From Pseudobdellovibrionaceae bacterium (lineage in GTDB: Bacteria > Bdellovibrionota > Bdellovibrionia > Bdellovibrionales > Bdellovibrionaceae), in assembly GCA_019637955.1 (NCBI GenBank), contig JAHBUS010000008.1, positions 62,001 through 126,000 of the forward strand: a DNA stretch of 64,000 nucleotides. The letters run 5' to 3'. The position numbers were made by a program, and so were the translations under genes. This document shows, one piece after another, positions 17,914-25,072 of the stretch; the stretch's first letter is position 1; every line of letters begins with the position of its first letter. A model generated the notes under the pieces. It saw only the letters and a list, made by a program, of their open reading frames with translations. It searched no databases and had not been told where the DNA came from.

Positions 17914-20625
17914 ATGCGCTCAAGCCGGGGTCTTTGGACCCTGATTTTCACCTTTGTCCTGCTTCTCACCACGGCGGTCTCGGCGGCCGAACCCCATTGC
18001 TCTCCACGGGCGGGCGACCCCACTCAAATTCAAGAAGCCGGTCTCGCGGCCTGCGTGAACATGTGCCAGCAGGTGTCCCAGCGCCAAGAAAAAGAAATGA
18101 CCCGTTATTTTGGCGATCGCTGCCAAGAGGAGCTCGAAAGGCAGAGCCGCAGCGGCATCCGAGGCGCCGCCAACAACGGTCGAGAAATTTTTGAAGACGC
18201 GATTTTGCGCTGTCTTCCGCTCGCGGCAAAAAATGCGGTCATGGGGCCCATTCACTTGGCGATGGCACTGCCGCAAATGATGTCCCAGCTTGGGGAGCGC
18301 CTCACCGAAGCCGCGGCGAAGAATCAACTCCCCGAAGGATTCTCGTTCCGTGAGTGTGACGAGAGCGCGGACTGCAAACGCGCGCTCGCGCGGCAGTTGA
18401 TCAACTACCAAGGGCGCAGCCCCCAAGGCGAGTGGCTCGTGAGCGATCAGACCGTCGATCAGCAAACGCGCGGCATGCGCGTGACCGACATGCTCGCGAT
18501 GATTCCCGAGCACCGCCGCAAGTCTCGTGACGAATGCTCGCGCGATCTCGCCTCGATCCGCCGGCGGGTCAACGGTGGCGGCGACGACTGGACGCTCGAA
18601 AAGCATCGCGAGGTCTACGACACCTTGGGGACACAACAGCCGCACTGCCTTGGAATTCTCAAACTCTCGCCGCCTGAGTTGGACCCTCAAATTCAGCAGC
18701 CTTCGACACCAAAGCCTTCCACGCCTGTGCCCGCAGGAACAAAGTCGATCATCGACGAACTTTCTTTTGCCGACACCATCGGGGTGGGACGCACCTGCGT
18801 GGGCCGAGATTTCGGCGTTGAGCTTTGCGGTGAGATCGCCTCGGTGATCGTGCCCATTCCGGGAATCAAAGGCGCTTCGCTCGCCTTTAAAGCCGCGAAG
18901 GCCGGGATCGCCGGGCGCCTGGCGCGAAGCTTTGATGCCGTGGCCGCACGCACGATCACCGCCGCCAATCAAGAATCACGCGCTTTGCGCATGGACCGCG
19001 AACTTGAGCGCCGTACGGGCGTGACGCCGGCCGCGCGTGAAGCCCGAGAGACCGCACCCGCGGCGCGCGACACCGCCCCTTCGAGCGAGCCCCGGCCGCC
19101 CGCCTCCGTCCCGACGGCCTCACGCACGCAGTTTATTTCGCGCCACGAGATGGTGGACATCACCACCGAGGCACAAAACCGCAAATGGATGGAGCTCGCC
19201 AAACAGACCAAGCCCGATGGGCGCACGCTCTTCGTGGACATCGAAAATTCGAAGATGAAATTTTTGAACGATTCGCTTCGCGACAAGTCGCTCGTCACGG
19301 CGATGACCAATCGGCACAAGCAAATCGTGATGGAAAAAATGGAAAAGCTCGGCAAGGATTTCCCGAACGTCGAGATCCTTCCGTACAGCGATTTCAAAGC
19401 CTTGCGTTTTGCGATCCGCGAGCCGATTCCACCCGCGCTGCGCGGACGTTTGAACGATCTGTTCCGCGAAGCCAACAAAGAATTTCGCGATGAATTGGTC
19501 AAAAATAAACTCGTGCGCGCCGAAGATCTCTCGGAAAACTGGTTCCGTGCGGGCGTGGGCCGCACGGCCGATCAGGCGAACTTGGCCTCGCGCTACGCCC
19601 GGCAGGCTCCCGGAGAAAACATCGTCCGGGATTACGCCGATTCCGCCCTGCACGGAAACTTAGGCCAGACTTTGCAAAACGTCGAACAAATGCGCGATCA
19701 AGTCCAATCGGGCCTGGGTCCCGGTTCAAATTTGCTCGAAGCTCTGCCGGGCTCGAACAATCGGATGATTCCGCGATTGGATGTCATGGACGTGGTTCGA
19801 AAAGAAAAAACACCCGAGGCGATCCGGACGGCTTTGAATCAACGCTATGGCGGCAATGTCACCACCGAACAGGCCACGCACCTTCGCGACTACCTGGGCA
19901 GTGTCGACGAGTTTTCTCCGGGCATTCATGTCGCACGCCGCGAAGTGCCGACTCTCTCGGACGCCACCGCAGGTGGTCTCTCCGCGGACTTCGCCGGCAT
20001 GGGGTCGCACAACATGCGCGAAACGGCTCGGGCCTTGGCGCGATCGCGCACGCTGGACGAAGCGTTGATCGCGACCCGCGAAGGCGAGCGCACGGTCACC
20101 TCGCTCTTTCAGAAGCGCATGCGCGACCGGCAAGCGATTATTCGCAATTACCTGGAAGATAAACGCGGCATGAAGGGTCTTCAGATTACCTGCTCGGGCG
20201 ACGACTGCGTCGCCGCGGTTCCGAAAGCTCTGAACTCGCGTCAGCGCGACGACCTTGTGCAACGTCTGTCCCGCACCGATGAACCGGCGGGCATGCGACT
20301 GGCTTTCATTCGAGAAAATGTGACCAATGCAACCGAGCGCAACGTGCTTGCGGCGCATGGCGAAGGGATCGAAAAGGCTCTGCGCAAAGAGCTCGCGGGG
20401 AAAGTTCCTGAAGACACGCTTCGAAATGTTCTTTTCGCTGTCGAAATGAATGGCACCACCACCGGCCAGGGTTCGGTGCGTTTGATCACCGGAAATTCAC
20501 GGGTGAAGCTCGGCGTGGCCGAACGTGCACGCATCCAAGAGGCCTTTAGTCGAGCCGTGAACGGCTTTAACGAGGCCGCCGCTAAATCGGGGGGAACTCC
20601 TGCCCGGTACATCGTCCAGCCGTAA
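17914..20625 (+). CDS. Large exported Cys-containing protein, unknown function
   Basis: A 903-residue protein I cannot assign. Residues 1-25 are a signal peptide ending near VSAAEP. Residues 26-320 contain about a dozen Cys (for example AACVNMC, FRECDESADC, RTCVG, VELCGE), suggesting disulphide-bonded folding in the periplasm or outside the cell. A Pro/Ser/Thr-rich linker (about 250-275) and a second low-complexity Ala/Arg/Pro linker (about 370-405) divide the protein into domains. The C-terminal half is mostly helical, Arg-rich and poor in Cys. ATG 17914 was chosen for the signal peptide directly after it. It has AAGGGG three bases upstream. It stands alone, divergent from dusB. Confidence 0.82.
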   Translation: MRSSRGLWTLIFTFVLLLTTAVSAAEPHCSPRAGDPTQIQEAGLAACVNMCQQVSQRQEKEMTRYFGDRCQEELERQSRSGIRGAANNGREIFEDAILRCLPLAAKNAVMGPIHLAMALPQMMSQLGERLTEAAAKNQLPEGFSFRECDESADCKRALARQLINYQGRSPQGEWLVSDQTVDQQTRGMRVTDMLAMIPEHRRKSRDECSRDLASIRRRVNGGGDDWTLEKHREVYDTLGTQQPHCLGILKLSPPELDPQIQQPSTPKPSTPVPAGTKSIIDELSFADTIGVGRTCVGRDFGVELCGEIASVIVPIPGIKGASLAFKAAKAGIAGRLARSFDAVAARTITAANQESRALRMDRELERRTGVTPAAREARETAPAARDTAPSSEPRPPASVPTASRTQFISRHEMVDITTEAQNRKWMELAKQTKPDGRTLFVDIENSKMKFLNDSLRDKSLVTAMTNRHKQIVMEKMEKLGKDFPNVEILPYSDFKALRFAIREPIPPALRGRLNDLFREANKEFRDELVKNKLVRAEDLSENWFRAGVGRTADQANLASRYARQAPGENIVRDYADSALHGNLGQTLQNVEQMRDQVQSGLGPGSNLLEALPGSNNRMIPRLDVMDVVRKEKTPEAIRTALNQRYGGNVTTEQATHLRDYLGSVDEFSPGIHVARREVPTLSDATAGGLSADFAGMGSHNMRETARALARSRTLDEALIATREGERTVTSLFQKRMRDRQAIIRNYLEDKRGMKGLQITCSGDDCVAAVPKALNSRQRDDLVQRLSRTDEPAGMRLAFIRENVTNATERNVLAAHGEGIEKALRKELAGKVPEDTLRNVLFAVEMNGTTTGQGSVRLITGNSRVKLGVAERARIQEAFSRAVNGFNEAAAKSGGTPARYIVQP

Positions 20626-20691
20626 AGTCTCACTTCGAGACGACCGCTCTTTTTTTTAAGATGGCCCTGTCGTATTCCGATAAGACATTTG

Positions 20692-21276
20692 ATGAGAAAC
20701 CAGGTTTTGCAATTCATTTCAAGGTGTTCCGCGATTTTCGCGGCCCTGAGCTTTGTCGGTTGCACCAAGGGTGAACCGACCATCGAATCGGTGAGCGCGC
20801 AAACCGCGATCTCATTGAATCAAACTTATTTTTCATCCAAAAATTTGTCGGCCTTCGTTTTGAACCTGACTGGGACATGTCAAAAAGGCATTACCGGTTT
20901 TGAGATCTCCGGTGATGGCGGCGGCTCATGGCAATCGGTCTCCAACGCGGGAACCTTCTCTCAAGACTGCGACACCAACGGCACATTTTCGATGTCGGTT
21001 CCTTCGCTCTCGCAGCGCGTGCCCGGACTGACCAGTCTTTATAATGGAGAGGGCCGAAATGTTTTGGTTCGCGGCACCAATATTTTTGGCGCGACCGATC
21101 CCGCCTCGGTCCTGATCGTCAGTCTCGCTTCGCCCTACAAAACAAAAGGCTACTTGCAGCAGGCCGACCGCACGATTTCGAATCACAACTACTCGAACTA
21201 CACGTTCCAAAACACGCACAATTTTTCCGAGCGCACACTGAGCGGCGGATATAAAGCGCGGGGGGCGGTCCGATGA
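20692..21276 (+). CDS. Putative lipoprotein, first gene of the fibre cassette
   Basis: 194 residues beginning MRNQVLQFISRCSAIFAALSFVGCTKGEP, a lipoprotein signal peptide with the lipobox SFVGC. The mature part is Ser/Thr/Asn/Gly-rich and beta-prone, resembling an Ig-like or bacterial adhesin-type domain (TGFEISGDGGGSWQSV and RNVLVRGTNIFGATDP). Its stop overlaps the start of the fibre gene (ATGA), so the two are translationally coupled. A role as the surface-anchored partner of the fibre is inference from gene order. I recognise no defined family. Confidence 0.82.
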   Translation: MRNQVLQFISRCSAIFAALSFVGCTKGEPTIESVSAQTAISLNQTYFSSKNLSAFVLNLTGTCQKGITGFEISGDGGGSWQSVSNAGTFSQDCDTNGTFSMSVPSLSQRVPGLTSLYNGEGRNVLVRGTNIFGATDPASVLIVSLASPYKTKGYLQQADRTISNHNYSNYTFQNTHNFSERTLSGGYKARGAVR

Positions 21277-23021
21277 TGAAACTCCTCTTCTTCGCTTTCG
21301 TCACGATGACGCTGACTTTCGCCAATGCGGGCGAATTGCTCACGTACGAAGGCCAAATCATTAAACCCGATAGCAATCCACTCGAAGCCGGATCGGTGAA
21401 CTTCCGCATCAAGATTTACAACCAGGCGAAGACCTGCTTGCTCTGGCAAGAAATCCAGAATTTGAACATGAATAACAGCGGCGGCGACTTCAGACTCGAA
21501 ATCGGCGGCGGCCCCAACACCGCGACTCCCGTGACCCAGTTCCGCAACATTTTTCAAAACGCGGGATCGTTGCAATGTAACGGCGGCAGCACCTATTCTC
21601 CGCCCGTGAATGAGCAACGAACTCTCTCGATCGAGTTTGATGACGATCTTGATACCACGTACGTGATCCTGGATGAAGTTCCGGTCAGTTTCGCTCCCTA
21701 CGCTTTTCACGCAACGACGGTGGGTGGTTACACGTCAAGCTACTTGTTCCGCACCGATGCGCCCTTTGCTTCCAACTTCCCTCTTGCGGGCGTGACCGAA
21801 ATGTACAATTTCGCTTCGAAAACGAACCTTGACGGCTCGATCTCGGCCCTTGGCGCACCGACCGCGTTTGGCGATGGAAACAATATTCCCGTCGTCACGG
21901 TAAATGAGTACGGTCGCGTGACCAAAGTGGCCACCGTGCCCGCGTCTTTGAGCGCATCGAACTTGGCTTCAGGCTCGGTGACCAACGCCAAGCTTGCGAC
22001 GAACTCGGTGACGAGCGACAAGATCCAGGACGGAACCATCGTGGACGCCGACATTTCGGCGGCCGCCGCGATCGCCGACACCAAGCTCGCCACGATCAGC
22101 TCTTCCGGAAAAGTTTCAAACAGTGCCACCACCGCGACCTCCGCCAATACCAACAGCGCCATCGTCGCGCGTGATGGCTCCGGTCACATCTCGGTCTCGC
22201 GAATCAACATGAGCGAAGGCCGCTTTGACAACGGCGCGGGCGGCTTGATTTCGATTTTCTCGCCCATGGGAGCTTCAACCTACTCTCTCAATCTGCCTCC
22301 GAACATGGGAGCAACCGGTCAGTTCTTGCAAACCGATGGCACCAATCAAGTCAACTGGGTGACCCTGGTTGGTCTCCCGACGTGCACCTCGAATCAAATC
22401 GCGTATTTTGACGGCTCGATTTGGCAGTGTAAGTCCTGGTCGATCGCGAGCGCGGCGAACGCCCTGGTCGCCCGCGATGGTTCTGGTAACGCCGAACTCA
22501 ATCAAGTCAATGTGATCACGGGCGTGCAGTACGCGCACGGCTCGGGCGGATCTGCCGTTTTGCGCGGAGCTTCGACCGGCACGAACTACACGGTTCGTCT
22601 CCCCGGGTCGGCTCCGGTTGCCACAGGTGACGCTCTTGTGCATTCGACGACCTCGGGCCAGCTCGCTTGGTCGAGCGCGACCAATCAAAGGATGAAAGTC
22701 GGCGGTCAATTGATCACCACGCAGACCGATTTTGGTGCTTCGGCGGCGCTCGATTTCGATGCCGGTAACACCCAGTATTCGAACACGCTCACGAGCTGCA
22801 GCAACTTGATCTTGAACAATATGATGGACGGCACGACTTACACCATCATTCTCGACAATCTGTCCGTGAGCGTGACTTGCACGTTCTCGATCGGCGGCGT
22901 TTCGAACATCCTCTACTCGCCCAGCAATCGCTCCACTGTCGCCAACTCGACCTCCATCTATCGCCTCACGAAAATCGGAGCGAGAGTCTTTGTCGAGTGG
23001 ACGACAGGAATCATCGAATGA
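21273..23021 (+). CDS. Exported fibre protein resembling Bdellovibrio mosaic adhesive trimer (MAT) and phage tail-fibre proteins
   Basis: 582 residues with a signal peptide (cut near NAGEL). The N-terminal domain (about 20-150) has the pattern LTYEGQIIKPDSNPLEAGSVNFRIKIYN through SFAPYAFHA, a layout I associate with Bdellovibrio MAT-type fibre proteins. The central part is low-complexity and tail-fibre-like: SGSVTNAKLATNSVTSDKI, SATTATSANT, and two near-repeats AIVARDGSGHISVSRIN (from residue 296) and ALVARDGSGNAELNQVN (from 397). The last ~110 residues form a distinct, beta-rich tip-like domain with two Cys. MAT fibres are established as prey-recognition proteins in Bdellovibrio. Trimerisation and adhesion here are inference. 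It is coupled to genes on both sides by ATGA overlaps. Confidence 0.8.
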   Translation: MMKLLFFAFVTMTLTFANAGELLTYEGQIIKPDSNPLEAGSVNFRIKIYNQAKTCLLWQEIQNLNMNNSGGDFRLEIGGGPNTATPVTQFRNIFQNAGSLQCNGGSTYSPPVNEQRTLSIEFDDDLDTTYVILDEVPVSFAPYAFHATTVGGYTSSYLFRTDAPFASNFPLAGVTEMYNFASKTNLDGSISALGAPTAFGDGNNIPVVTVNEYGRVTKVATVPASLSASNLASGSVTNAKLATNSVTSDKIQDGTIVDADISAAAAIADTKLATISSSGKVSNSATTATSANTNSAIVARDGSGHISVSRINMSEGRFDNGAGGLISIFSPMGASTYSLNLPPNMGATGQFLQTDGTNQVNWVTLVGLPTCTSNQIAYFDGSIWQCKSWSIASAANALVARDGSGNAELNQVNVITGVQYAHGSGGSAVLRGASTGTNYTVRLPGSAPVATGDALVHSTTSGQLAWSSATNQRMKVGGQLITTQTDFGASAALDFDAGNTQYSNTLTSCSNLILNNMMDGTTYTIILDNLSVSVTCTFSIGGVSNILYSPSNRSTVANSTSIYRLTKIGARVFVEWTTGIIE

Positions 23022-24283
23022 TGTCTCGCCTTCTTTGCCGTTTCTTGATCATCGGATCGCTGATCGCGGCTTCGTCCGCGAGCCAGGCGTTCTTGAATCA
23101 AGGGCGCCTGCCCCCCTTCGCGGGTGCGGAAGACACGACATTCTTCGGATCGAACGGACGCGATGCTGCGGTTTCGGATCATGGCTTCGATGCCACCGTT
23201 CGAGCTATCGTTTACCATCCCGGCAGCAACAGCTTGATCGTTGGCGGCGACTTCACGAAGTACAACGGGGTGTTCGTCAATGGACTGGCCAAAATCAGTC
23301 TTGACGGTCAGCTAGACACGACCTTCAACGCCAATATCGGCGCGGGTTTTACGGGTTCTGTCTACACCATCGCGGTCGATAACAACAACCGGATCGTCGT
23401 GGGCGGAACGTTTGTAAACGCCGGCGGTTACTCCAATCTCGACTACATCGCTCGTTTGCAGCCCGACGGAAGCTACGATTCTTTCTTCCAGCCGGACGCC
23501 ATTGCCGGCGAGATCAAGTCGATCGCGATCGATGGATCGAACCGCATCGTGATCGGCTGCAACTGCCATGATGACGTGCCCTTGCCCTATAATTACCAGC
23601 TTCTGGCACGCCTTCGCGCCTCCGACGGAAAATTCGACAGCACCTTCGCGCAGACGGCGCTGACTTACGACGGCAGCGCCTCGGTCAATTCGGTCGCGCT
23701 CACTTCGGACGGGTCGATCGTTGCGGGCGGAAGCTTCGTGATCAGCGGAACCAAGAACAACGTGATGAAATTTCAAACCAACGGCAACGTCGACAATTCG
23801 TTCCTGGTGAACATCGGAACGGCGACGACCGCTTCGAGTTTCGTCTATGCCGTTCGCGTCCAAGCCGACGATAAAATTCTGGTGGGCGGAACCTTCACGA
23901 CGTTCGATGGCTTCGCCGCGCCGAAACTCGTGCGTTTGCAAGCCAACGGCATCCGGGACACCGGCTTTGCCTTGTCGTCGCAACTCGGAACCGTTTACGG
24001 CATTTTTCTTGATTCCGCGGCCAAGCTTCTCGTCGTCGGCACTCAGTTCGGAAATGTGGGACCCAATCCGGGCTACCAGCAAATCCGCCGCTACGGCACT
24101 GCCGGCGGAGCGACGGACTTGAGCCTGAATCCCGGCGCCGGTTTCGGCCCACTCGCCTCCAACATCGTCTACTCCATGGCTTATCACAAAGGCTATCTCT
24201 ACGCGGTCGGCGACTTCTCCTCCTACAACGCCCACAACGTCCCCCGAATCACCAAAATCTACGTCGGCCCCTACGACCCCTAA
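23018..24283 (+). CDS. Exported delta-60-repeat (beta-propeller-like) protein
   Basis: 421 residues with a signal peptide (cut near SQAFLNQ). The mature protein is built of delta-60 repeats, a repeat class known from deltaproteobacteria-like genomes. Each unit reads roughly hydrophobic-x-VGG-x-F, then (A/V)RL-x-x-(D/N)G-x-x-D-x-x-F (for example RIVVGGTFVNAGG with IARLQPDGSYDSFF, and ILVGGTFTTFDGFA with LVRLQANGIRDTGF). About seven units suggest a beta-propeller. I took the ATG at 23018 overlapping the fibre stop. The TAA stop lies inside a REP-like palindrome at 24278. The position downstream of the fibre suggests a secreted partner or ligand-binding protein. That is inference. Confidence 0.88.
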   Translation: MMSRLLCRFLIIGSLIAASSASQAFLNQGRLPPFAGAEDTTFFGSNGRDAAVSDHGFDATVRAIVYHPGSNSLIVGGDFTKYNGVFVNGLAKISLDGQLDTTFNANIGAGFTGSVYTIAVDNNNRIVVGGTFVNAGGYSNLDYIARLQPDGSYDSFFQPDAIAGEIKSIAIDGSNRIVIGCNCHDDVPLPYNYQLLARLRASDGKFDSTFAQTALTYDGSASVNSVALTSDGSIVAGGSFVISGTKNNVMKFQTNGNVDNSFLVNIGTATTASSFVYAVRVQADDKILVGGTFTTFDGFAAPKLVRLQANGIRDTGFALSSQLGTVYGIFLDSAAKLLVVGTQFGNVGPNPGYQQIRRYGTAGGATDLSLNPGAGFGPLASNIVYSMAYHKGYLYAVGDFSSYNAHNVPRITKIYVGPYDP

Positions 24284-24306
24284 AAGGTGCCTGGCACCTT
24301 TTAGGG
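24278..24306. repeat. REP-like palindrome, left copy
   Basis: A perfect palindrome with arms CCCTAAAAGGTGCC and GGCACCTTTTAGGG around one central T. It contains the stop codon of the delta-60 gene and lies 14 bases from the stop of the RAYT gene. The same core recurs at 25045. Confidence 0.85.
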
Positions 24307-24319
24307 ACCCAGCGCGGCA

Positions 24320-24955
24320 TCAAAGAAGGTCATGACATAGGTGATGTGAGAATCCTGTCTCCTGATTTTTCGAGATCGAGAAGACCTGATGTTTAAGCGC
24401 CAGTCGAATTGCGTGCTCATCCTGAAGATCAGGTGGGGTTCTCAGCCACCTGAGGGTGGAATCAAAACTTTCGAAAAGCGTAAGGTCCTCTTGCAGTGGA
24501 ATGTGAAGCTTCTCGAGTCCAACGAGTCCGCGTAATGTCGAAAATGGATAGTCCTCCGGAGCCGCGCAAATACCAGCACGCACGGGATTTCGATAAACGT
24601 ATTTGTAGGCGTTCTTATAGTAATGAAATGATGTGATTTCGGAACGATGAAATCTCGAGCCATAACGTTGGTTCTCCGAGTTCTCCATTTGCGATATCGC
24701 GCGACTTGTTCCTTGCATGAAGTACTGCATCGCAGTGGATGCATTTGCATGGGGAAAGTTTGCGAGGCAATGAAAATGGTTCGACATCAAGACAAAGCTA
24801 AAAATGCGAACTCCGTAAAAGTGATGCAGTCCGAACAAATGATTTTCCATTTCAGTCCAGACTAAGGGCATTGAGACAAAAGGAATGCGGCTGTTGGTTC
24901 GTGCGGTCAAATGGTAGATTGATGTCGGATTGCAGAGAAAATGAGCTCGTGGCAT
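24320..24955 (-). CDS. REP-associated tyrosine transposase (RAYT, Y1/IS200-like)
   Basis: A 211-residue RAYT. The N-terminus MPRAHFLCNPTSIYHLTART, the HUH-type motif MSNHFHCLANF and the catalytic-Tyr region KNAYKYVYRNPVRAGI are characteristic of the Y1 transposase fold. A C-terminal extension is also present. RAYTs are domesticated IS200-like enzymes linked to the spread of REP palindromes. Here the gene is bracketed by two copies of one palindrome. Base composition is visibly more AT-rich than neighbouring genes, consistent with acquisition. There is no convincing Shine-Dalgarno before the ATG. The gene looks intact. Confidence 0.9.
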   Translation of the reverse strand: MPRAHFLCNPTSIYHLTARTNSRIPFVSMPLVWTEMENHLFGLHHFYGVRIFSFVLMSNHFHCLANFPHANASTAMQYFMQGTSRAISQMENSENQRYGSRFHRSEITSFHYYKNAYKYVYRNPVRAGICAAPEDYPFSTLRGLVGLEKLHIPLQEDLTLFESFDSTLRWLRTPPDLQDEHAIRLALKHQVFSISKNQETGFSHHLCHDLL

Positions 24956-25044: not shown

Positions 25045-25072
25045 CCCTAAAAGGTGCCTGGCACCTTAGAGG
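25045..25072. repeat. REP-like palindrome, right copy
   Basis: CCCTAAAAGGTGCC-T-GGCACCTTAGAGG, identical to the left copy in the left arm and core, with changes in the right arm. It contains the stop codon (TAA on the minus strand, 25066-25068) of the nitroreductase gene. Confidence 0.85.

Follow-up and report, generated by a model that had tools for sequence, protein, structure and literature searches.

Mosaic adhesive trimer (MAT) proteins are displayed on the bacterial surface as trimeric fibres with exchangeable tips, and one such tip binds N-acetylglucosamine and glycans of prey lipopolysaccharide (PMC10769870). The authors of that work left unidentified what holds the MAT base domain at the surface of the predator (PMC10769870, Caulton et al. 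2024), and its main text mentions neither a lipoprotein nor a propeller nor operon partners (PMC10769870). In the T-even phage S16, the gp37 trimer is capped by one gp38 adhesin, which attaches via three conserved tryptophans (PMC6851490). Here we analyse a cassette of three genes, encoding a lipoprotein, a MAT fibre and a delta-60 beta-propeller, in a 64,000-nucleotide stretch (the window) of contig C13 of a 3.77-Mb Pseudobdellovibrionaceae genome. We think that the three genes probably specify one modular surface adhesin, with a lipoprotein base, a MAT shaft ending in an adaptor tip, and an exchangeable head supplied in trans.

Like the MAT superfamily of Bdellovibrio bacteriovorus, the fibre of the window has an N-terminal MAT domain after a signal peptide, a fibre-like middle and an exchangeable non-S74 tip. 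The published account regards the heads as part of the fibre chain (PMC10769870), whereas we propose here a separately encoded head and a lipoprotein partner. A separate adhesin gene beside the fibre gene is also the arrangement of S16 gp37/gp38, and the conserved tryptophans by which gp38 attaches may be comparable to an aromatic N-terminal motif of the downstream partners, which is weak in the window protein. Unlike gp37/gp38, the cassette is bacterial, secreted and paired with a lipoprotein, and its heads have many unrelated folds. A profile of the tip compared with PDB sequences found no relative below E=0.2, so that no sequence relationship to the gp37 tip or to gp38 was found and the likeness is thus an analogy and not membership. 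The proposed logic of the cassette resembles that of S16 and differs from T4, where gp38 is a chaperone. Within the delta-60/DUF5122 proteins the window propeller is a clear member, while its slot is filled elsewhere by NHL, RCC1, Kelch or laminin-G proteins. A signal peptidase II lipobox and a surface protein operon are shared with lipoprotein-anchored surface adhesins in general; unlike in those, a C-terminal tail is common to otherwise unrelated lipoproteins and is linked to one fibre domain.

Structure of the cassette

The cassette consists of three open reading frames (ORFs) on the same (+) strand, with the following features.

20692-21276, + strand: MAT-partner lipoprotein, class A (194 aa; relatives 5' of MATs in several genera)
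21273-21276, + strand: ATGA start/stop overlap, lipoprotein/MAT (an NTGA overlap is also found in other lipoprotein-MAT pairs)
21273-23021, + strand: MAT fibre protein, non-S74 type (582 aa, signal peptide; NF053851 match)
21300-21740, + strand: MAT N-terminal base domain (residues 10-156, NF053851)
21942-22190, + strand: phage-tail-fibre-like shaft segment, TSDKIQDGTIVDADISAAAAIADTKLA (residues ~224-306; widespread in bacteria and phages)
22158-22184, + strand: near-repeat 1, AIVARDGSG (residue 296)
22461-22487, + strand: near-repeat 2, ALVARDGSG (residue 397)
22665-23018, + strand: C-terminal adaptor-like tip domain, family A3 (the same domain lies at the extreme C-terminus of MATs)
23018-23021, + strand: ATGA start/stop overlap, MAT/propeller (junction read from the sequence)
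23018-24283, + strand: exported delta-60 (DUF5122) beta-propeller, the proposed in-trans head (421 aa, signal peptide)

The sequence at each junction is ATGATG and contains the stop codon TGA of the preceding gene, so that neighbouring genes overlap by the 4 nt ATGA, as the first-pass annotation of this DNA had described. The first protein, called a lipoprotein there, has an n-region, an h-region and the lipobox SAIFAALSFVG-C with Cys24, followed by a body of about 115 aa and the C-terminal tail SGGYKARGAVR; this class A tail motif is common to otherwise unrelated lipoproteins 5' of MATs. TTG at 20689 is an alternative start for its gene. Simple scans for an operon promoter or terminator gave nothing informative.

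The resemblance of the fibre to Bdellovibrio MATs, also noted in the first pass, was borne out by the NCBIfam model NF053851 (Bdello_MAT_N), which matches residues 10-156 with 117.1 bits over a cut-off of 60. A conserved beta-rich N-terminal domain of about 130 aa lies directly after the signal peptide, no S74 domain is found by Pfam, and the variable C-terminal tip belongs to a family common to other MATs. Judged by its domains, the window fibre is a genuine MAT, and it would be trimeric like those with solved structures. The two near-repeats and the distinct tip-like domain that had been described are both present. The shaft segment matches a cyanophage fibre (8i4m, E=5e-4) and PHROG tail fibre/tail families (E 5e-5 to 1e-4), and a contig search of genomes with the whole fibre gave shaft-motif matches only, in unrelated phyla. 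The window genome holds eight MAT_N loci and further lipoprotein-MAT pairs: a second class A pair on C8 and a third, with a different lipoprotein type, on C1.

The third protein was rightly assigned to the delta-60 type. PF17164 (DUF5122) scores 113 bits over a cut-off of 27, in four stretches; delta-60 repeats are present, and the TIGR02608 score (67.5 bits) is just under the whole-protein cut-off of 76.5. Single-sequence structure prediction is of low confidence, with a model that matches beta-propellers. This is the only delta-60 gene of the genome, and the window propeller has few relatives elsewhere. The gene calls and family assignments of the cassette are not explained by chance.

Lipoproteins as upstream partners of MATs

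Our sample comprised 100 MAT genes taken from some 40 genomes within the family and the order, 98 of the genes being evaluable for the upstream neighbour, with starts picked automatically, signal peptides called by simple rules and taxonomic statements based on group codes. Under a strict rule (a same-strand lipobox gene ending no more than 250 nt from the MAT domain), a lipoprotein lies directly 5' of 29 of the 98 MATs, against 10 of 223 control genes, which were other genes in DNA near MATs (Fisher p=1.9e-9). Manual reading of the remaining upstream ORFs added seven or eight pairs, bringing the count to about 36 of 98. The exact NTGA overlap occurs in 16 of 37 lipoprotein-MAT pairs, among which the L118 pair is probably unrelated. 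Since the lipoprotein is a recurrent MAT partner, a role as base or anchor is plausible.

The lipoprotein bodies are of several types: class A, very short (~65-85 mature residues), Big_1-like or fn3, and one family without Pfam match. Many of these proteins end alike, often in two copies of motifs such as GGYKIRGRI or YKVYSSVQGAI. A weight matrix built from class A tails only places the tails of the other MAT-partner lipoproteins near the top of 537 ORFs (Mann-Whitney p=8e-8), and none of the Pfam or NCBIfam models searched covers the shared tail. By eye, the TYQGRI of the MAT base domain resembles the VQGQI and IRGRI of the lipoprotein tails, a likeness that could hint at strand sharing.

The lipoprotein could instead be a factor for MAT assembly or export and not a stable anchor, which we regard as somewhat unlikely. 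The combination of varying bodies with a conserved tail speaks for such a factor, as does the tight translational coupling of the lipoprotein gene to the MAT, which is expected for either role. However, an export factor could serve all MATs in common, and the variable bodies (class A, Big_1, fn3) are easier to reconcile with a surface base than with one secretion device for all.

Lipoprotein pairs in Bdellovibrio bacteriovorus HD100

Proteins of genome G036 match the crystallised MATs 8ojn (Bd3182), 8ol4 (Bd2439), 8okw (Bd2734) and 8oks (Bd2740) across the published residue ranges, and we take this genome to be B. bacteriovorus HD100. All four genes have a lipoprotein gene directly 5'. A whole-genome search with a profile built from the short lipoproteins returned five full-length matches in HD100 (E<=3e-6), all adjoining MAT genes; MAT genes and their edges make up about 2.6% of the genome. 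Four of the five were members of the profile; the fifth, at 2463711, precedes a 1661-aa MAT outside the original sample. In a related genome (G024), three of the matches likewise lay outside the profile, and all flank MATs. These results provide candidates for the surface element that would hold the MAT base domain, among them the lipoprotein genes immediately 5' of the four structurally solved MATs.

In HD100 and its relatives, a short lipoprotein with the tail YKVYSSVQGAIVSN comes after solitary-type MATs arranged in tandem (L113:6720-7070, which is HD100 3191019-3191369, and L223, G024:C1:811650-811943), so that the order is not always lipoprotein first.

The tip family and its downstream partners

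The tip family is defined by the C-terminal ~105 residues of the window fibre, and 66 of 197 relative genomes contain matches to it. In genes whose end can be seen, the tip lies nearly always at the extreme C-terminus (0-2 residues left), mostly in MAT_N proteins. Of 51 tip loci, 32 are followed directly by an ORF of exported appearance, at -45 to +60 nt from the fibre stop, as are 7 of 64 other MATs (p=7e-9). This p-value is a guide only, since sampling differed between the two sets and some orthologues are among them. These downstream partners have unrelated folds, often lectin-like, which Pfam assigns as follows.

DUF5122: window, L243, L251, L257, L271
NHL: HD100, L264, L265
RCC1: G031, G013, L278
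Kelch: L254, L260, L279
Laminin_G_3: L267, L268, L284
FGE-sulfatase fold: L236
DUF285: L269
ALK/LTK glycine-rich domain: L255

It could be argued that the receptor binder for prey is the MAT tip itself, with the propeller as an optional second specificity. Bd2439, a non-S74 MAT tip, does bind a glycan directly (PMC10769870), and some tip-bearing MATs stand without an adjoining partner. Yet this one tip stays conserved in many genera as the heads beside it vary, whereas a specificity determinant would show the opposite, and we judge this explanation unlikely.

In many partners, whatever their fold, a short aromatic motif (..GFWK..) lies just after the signal peptide; examples are FRSNIAFWNQ, FRSTVAFWKG, MFNMGAFWKR, RVNIGFWKP, MPFGFFSQ and PHGLWRK. 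The pattern [GAS]F[WF] at residues 15-52, picked after inspection of the partners, occurs in 14 of 31 partners, compared with 19 of 476 exported ORFs used as controls (p=1.6e-10). A matrix trained on the NHL and DUF5122 partners places 6 of 23 partners of other folds above the 99th control percentile (p=1.5e-4). At one locus (L266) the neighbour is convergent and, by eye, RCC1-like, with the same kind of N-terminal peptide.

According to a further explanation, the downstream propeller is not mounted on the tip at all and is either an independent secreted adhesin or a chaperone for folding of the fibre, as gp38 is for gp37 in T4. Gene 38 of T4, beside the fibre gene, is indeed a chaperone (PMC6851490, PMC6957217), and the window propeller shows no clear docking motif. 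What makes this explanation quite unlikely is that the partners share the aromatic motif at their mature N-terminus and are structurally unrelated, often lectin-like, which is unexpected for the chaperone of one conserved tip.

Twin-arginine-like signals are seen in the partners of L252, L254, L266 and L278 (SRREFFKRG, SRRDFLKTA, ERRNFLESV and TRRQFLEDL). Pfam calls TAT_signal in the L254 partner, and the MATs themselves carry ordinary signal peptides. The signals suggest that these partners may be exported folded.

Complete cassettes and a proposed modular adhesin

A lipoprotein gene, a MAT gene with this tip and an adjoining head gene stand together at four loci.

Window: lipoprotein, MAT and delta-60 head
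HD100 682166-690423: lipoprotein, MAT (1959 aa) and NHL head (688288-690423)
G031 2725038-2730909: lipoprotein, MAT and RCC1 head
G066: lipoprotein, MAT and NHL head

Genome G007 has two class A lipoprotein-MAT pairs on its contig C2 (L096 and L097). One lies next to the dus gene found also beside the window cassette and has no propeller; the other is followed, by a 4-nt overlap, by a protein with an Lcl_C domain, an adhesin-like partner.

We hypothesize that the lipoprotein would sit in the outer membrane, where its conserved C-terminal tail may hold the N-terminal base domain of the MAT; for paired MATs, the co-encoded lipoprotein would thus be the surface element that holds this domain. The MAT would form the shaft, as a trimer if it follows the solved MATs. 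Its ~105-aa tip would be a general adaptor and not the final receptor binder, and would carry the separately encoded, exchangeable head from the next gene: delta-60 here; NHL, RCC1, Kelch or laminin-G in relatives. In this model, binding of the lipoprotein to the MAT, trimer formation, mounting of the head onto the tip and binding of prey glycans are predictions.

Several observations weigh against this modular adhesin. About 62 of the 98 MATs stand without an adjoining lipoprotein, and in the MAT N-domain tree a 19-member clade with most of the solitary MATs of the genus Bdellovibrio has no lipoprotein pair. About a third of the tip-bearing MATs have no adjoining exported gene, and for some downstream partners no fold was recognised. 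The window propeller (SQA-FLNQGRLPPFAG) is at the 69th control percentile for the aromatic N-terminal motif, and consequently the docking element is not established for the window cassette. Structure prediction of the window lipoprotein from its single sequence was uninformative (predicted local distance difference test score, pLDDT, 35). Moreover, the class A body is also the N-terminal part of long multidomain lipoproteins away from MATs, so that the body alone is no marker of a MAT partner.

Two stronger statements were rejected on these grounds: that the class A body is MAT-specific, as it also starts large multidomain lipoproteins, and that all MATs have a lipoprotein, as most sampled MATs are unpaired. 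Because solitary MATs are common, any anchor that they need would sometimes have to work in trans. The pairing is scattered over deep branches of the MAT N-domain tree; in one possible reading it would be ancient, with the large Bdellovibrio expansion sharing anchors in trans.

The three genes could also be neighbours by chance that merely share a surface-protein operon. The G007 pair beside the dus gene, the many solitary MATs and the missing strict conservation are in favour of this. Against it stands the statistical enrichment of both adjacencies, which moreover recur with bodies or heads that are not homologous, and we find it very improbable.

The first-pass annotation had inferred a surface module from a fixed three-gene arrangement. 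The fixed cassette of lipoprotein, MAT and delta-60 protein was rejected, given the MATs without lipoprotein, the G007 pair without propeller, the varying folds of the third slot and the single delta-60 gene of the genome. As the third gene comes from different fold families, the functional picture was kept and the fixed delta-60 cassette dropped: lipoprotein and propeller-type partners do recur by MAT and tip class. Homologous fibres without these neighbours were found as well, with which the strict version fails, while a version conditional on the tip and N-domain type survives.

It is tempting to extend the modular adhesin to the whole group. Some MAT fibres of Bdellovibrionota may be exchangeable devices in three parts, with tail-sharing lipoproteins as the surface holder and unrelated heads mounted on the adaptor tip via an aromatic N-terminal peptide, an extension that we consider possible rather than probable. 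If true, prey range would be re-tooled by the swap of a neighbouring gene and not of the fibre. Our results further suggest that the adhesive repertoire of predatory bacteria also takes in propeller and lectin genes next to those of the fibres, and that a simple genomic rule for locating prey-recognition heads would follow from the tip-neighbour pattern.

Neighbouring sequences and minor observations

Long lipoproteins with a class A body were seen at L106:11508-15455, L098, L099 and L104, some with Ig-like, Calx-beta, GLUG or DUF1554 domains.

On the same strand, 66 nt 5' of the cassette, lies a gene for a 903-aa exported protein (17914-20625) without Pfam match, which could share a transcript with the cassette.

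The palindrome AAAGGTGCCTGGCACCTTT is found at 24283-24301, beginning inside the propeller stop codon, and again at 25050-25068. The two copies flank an IS200-like transposase gene (24320-24955, minus strand; PF01797). The genome has about 29 sites of this palindrome and 0 of the reversed pattern, and palindrome and transposase gene together look like an element of the repetitive extragenic palindrome/REP-associated tyrosine transposase (REP/RAYT) kind.

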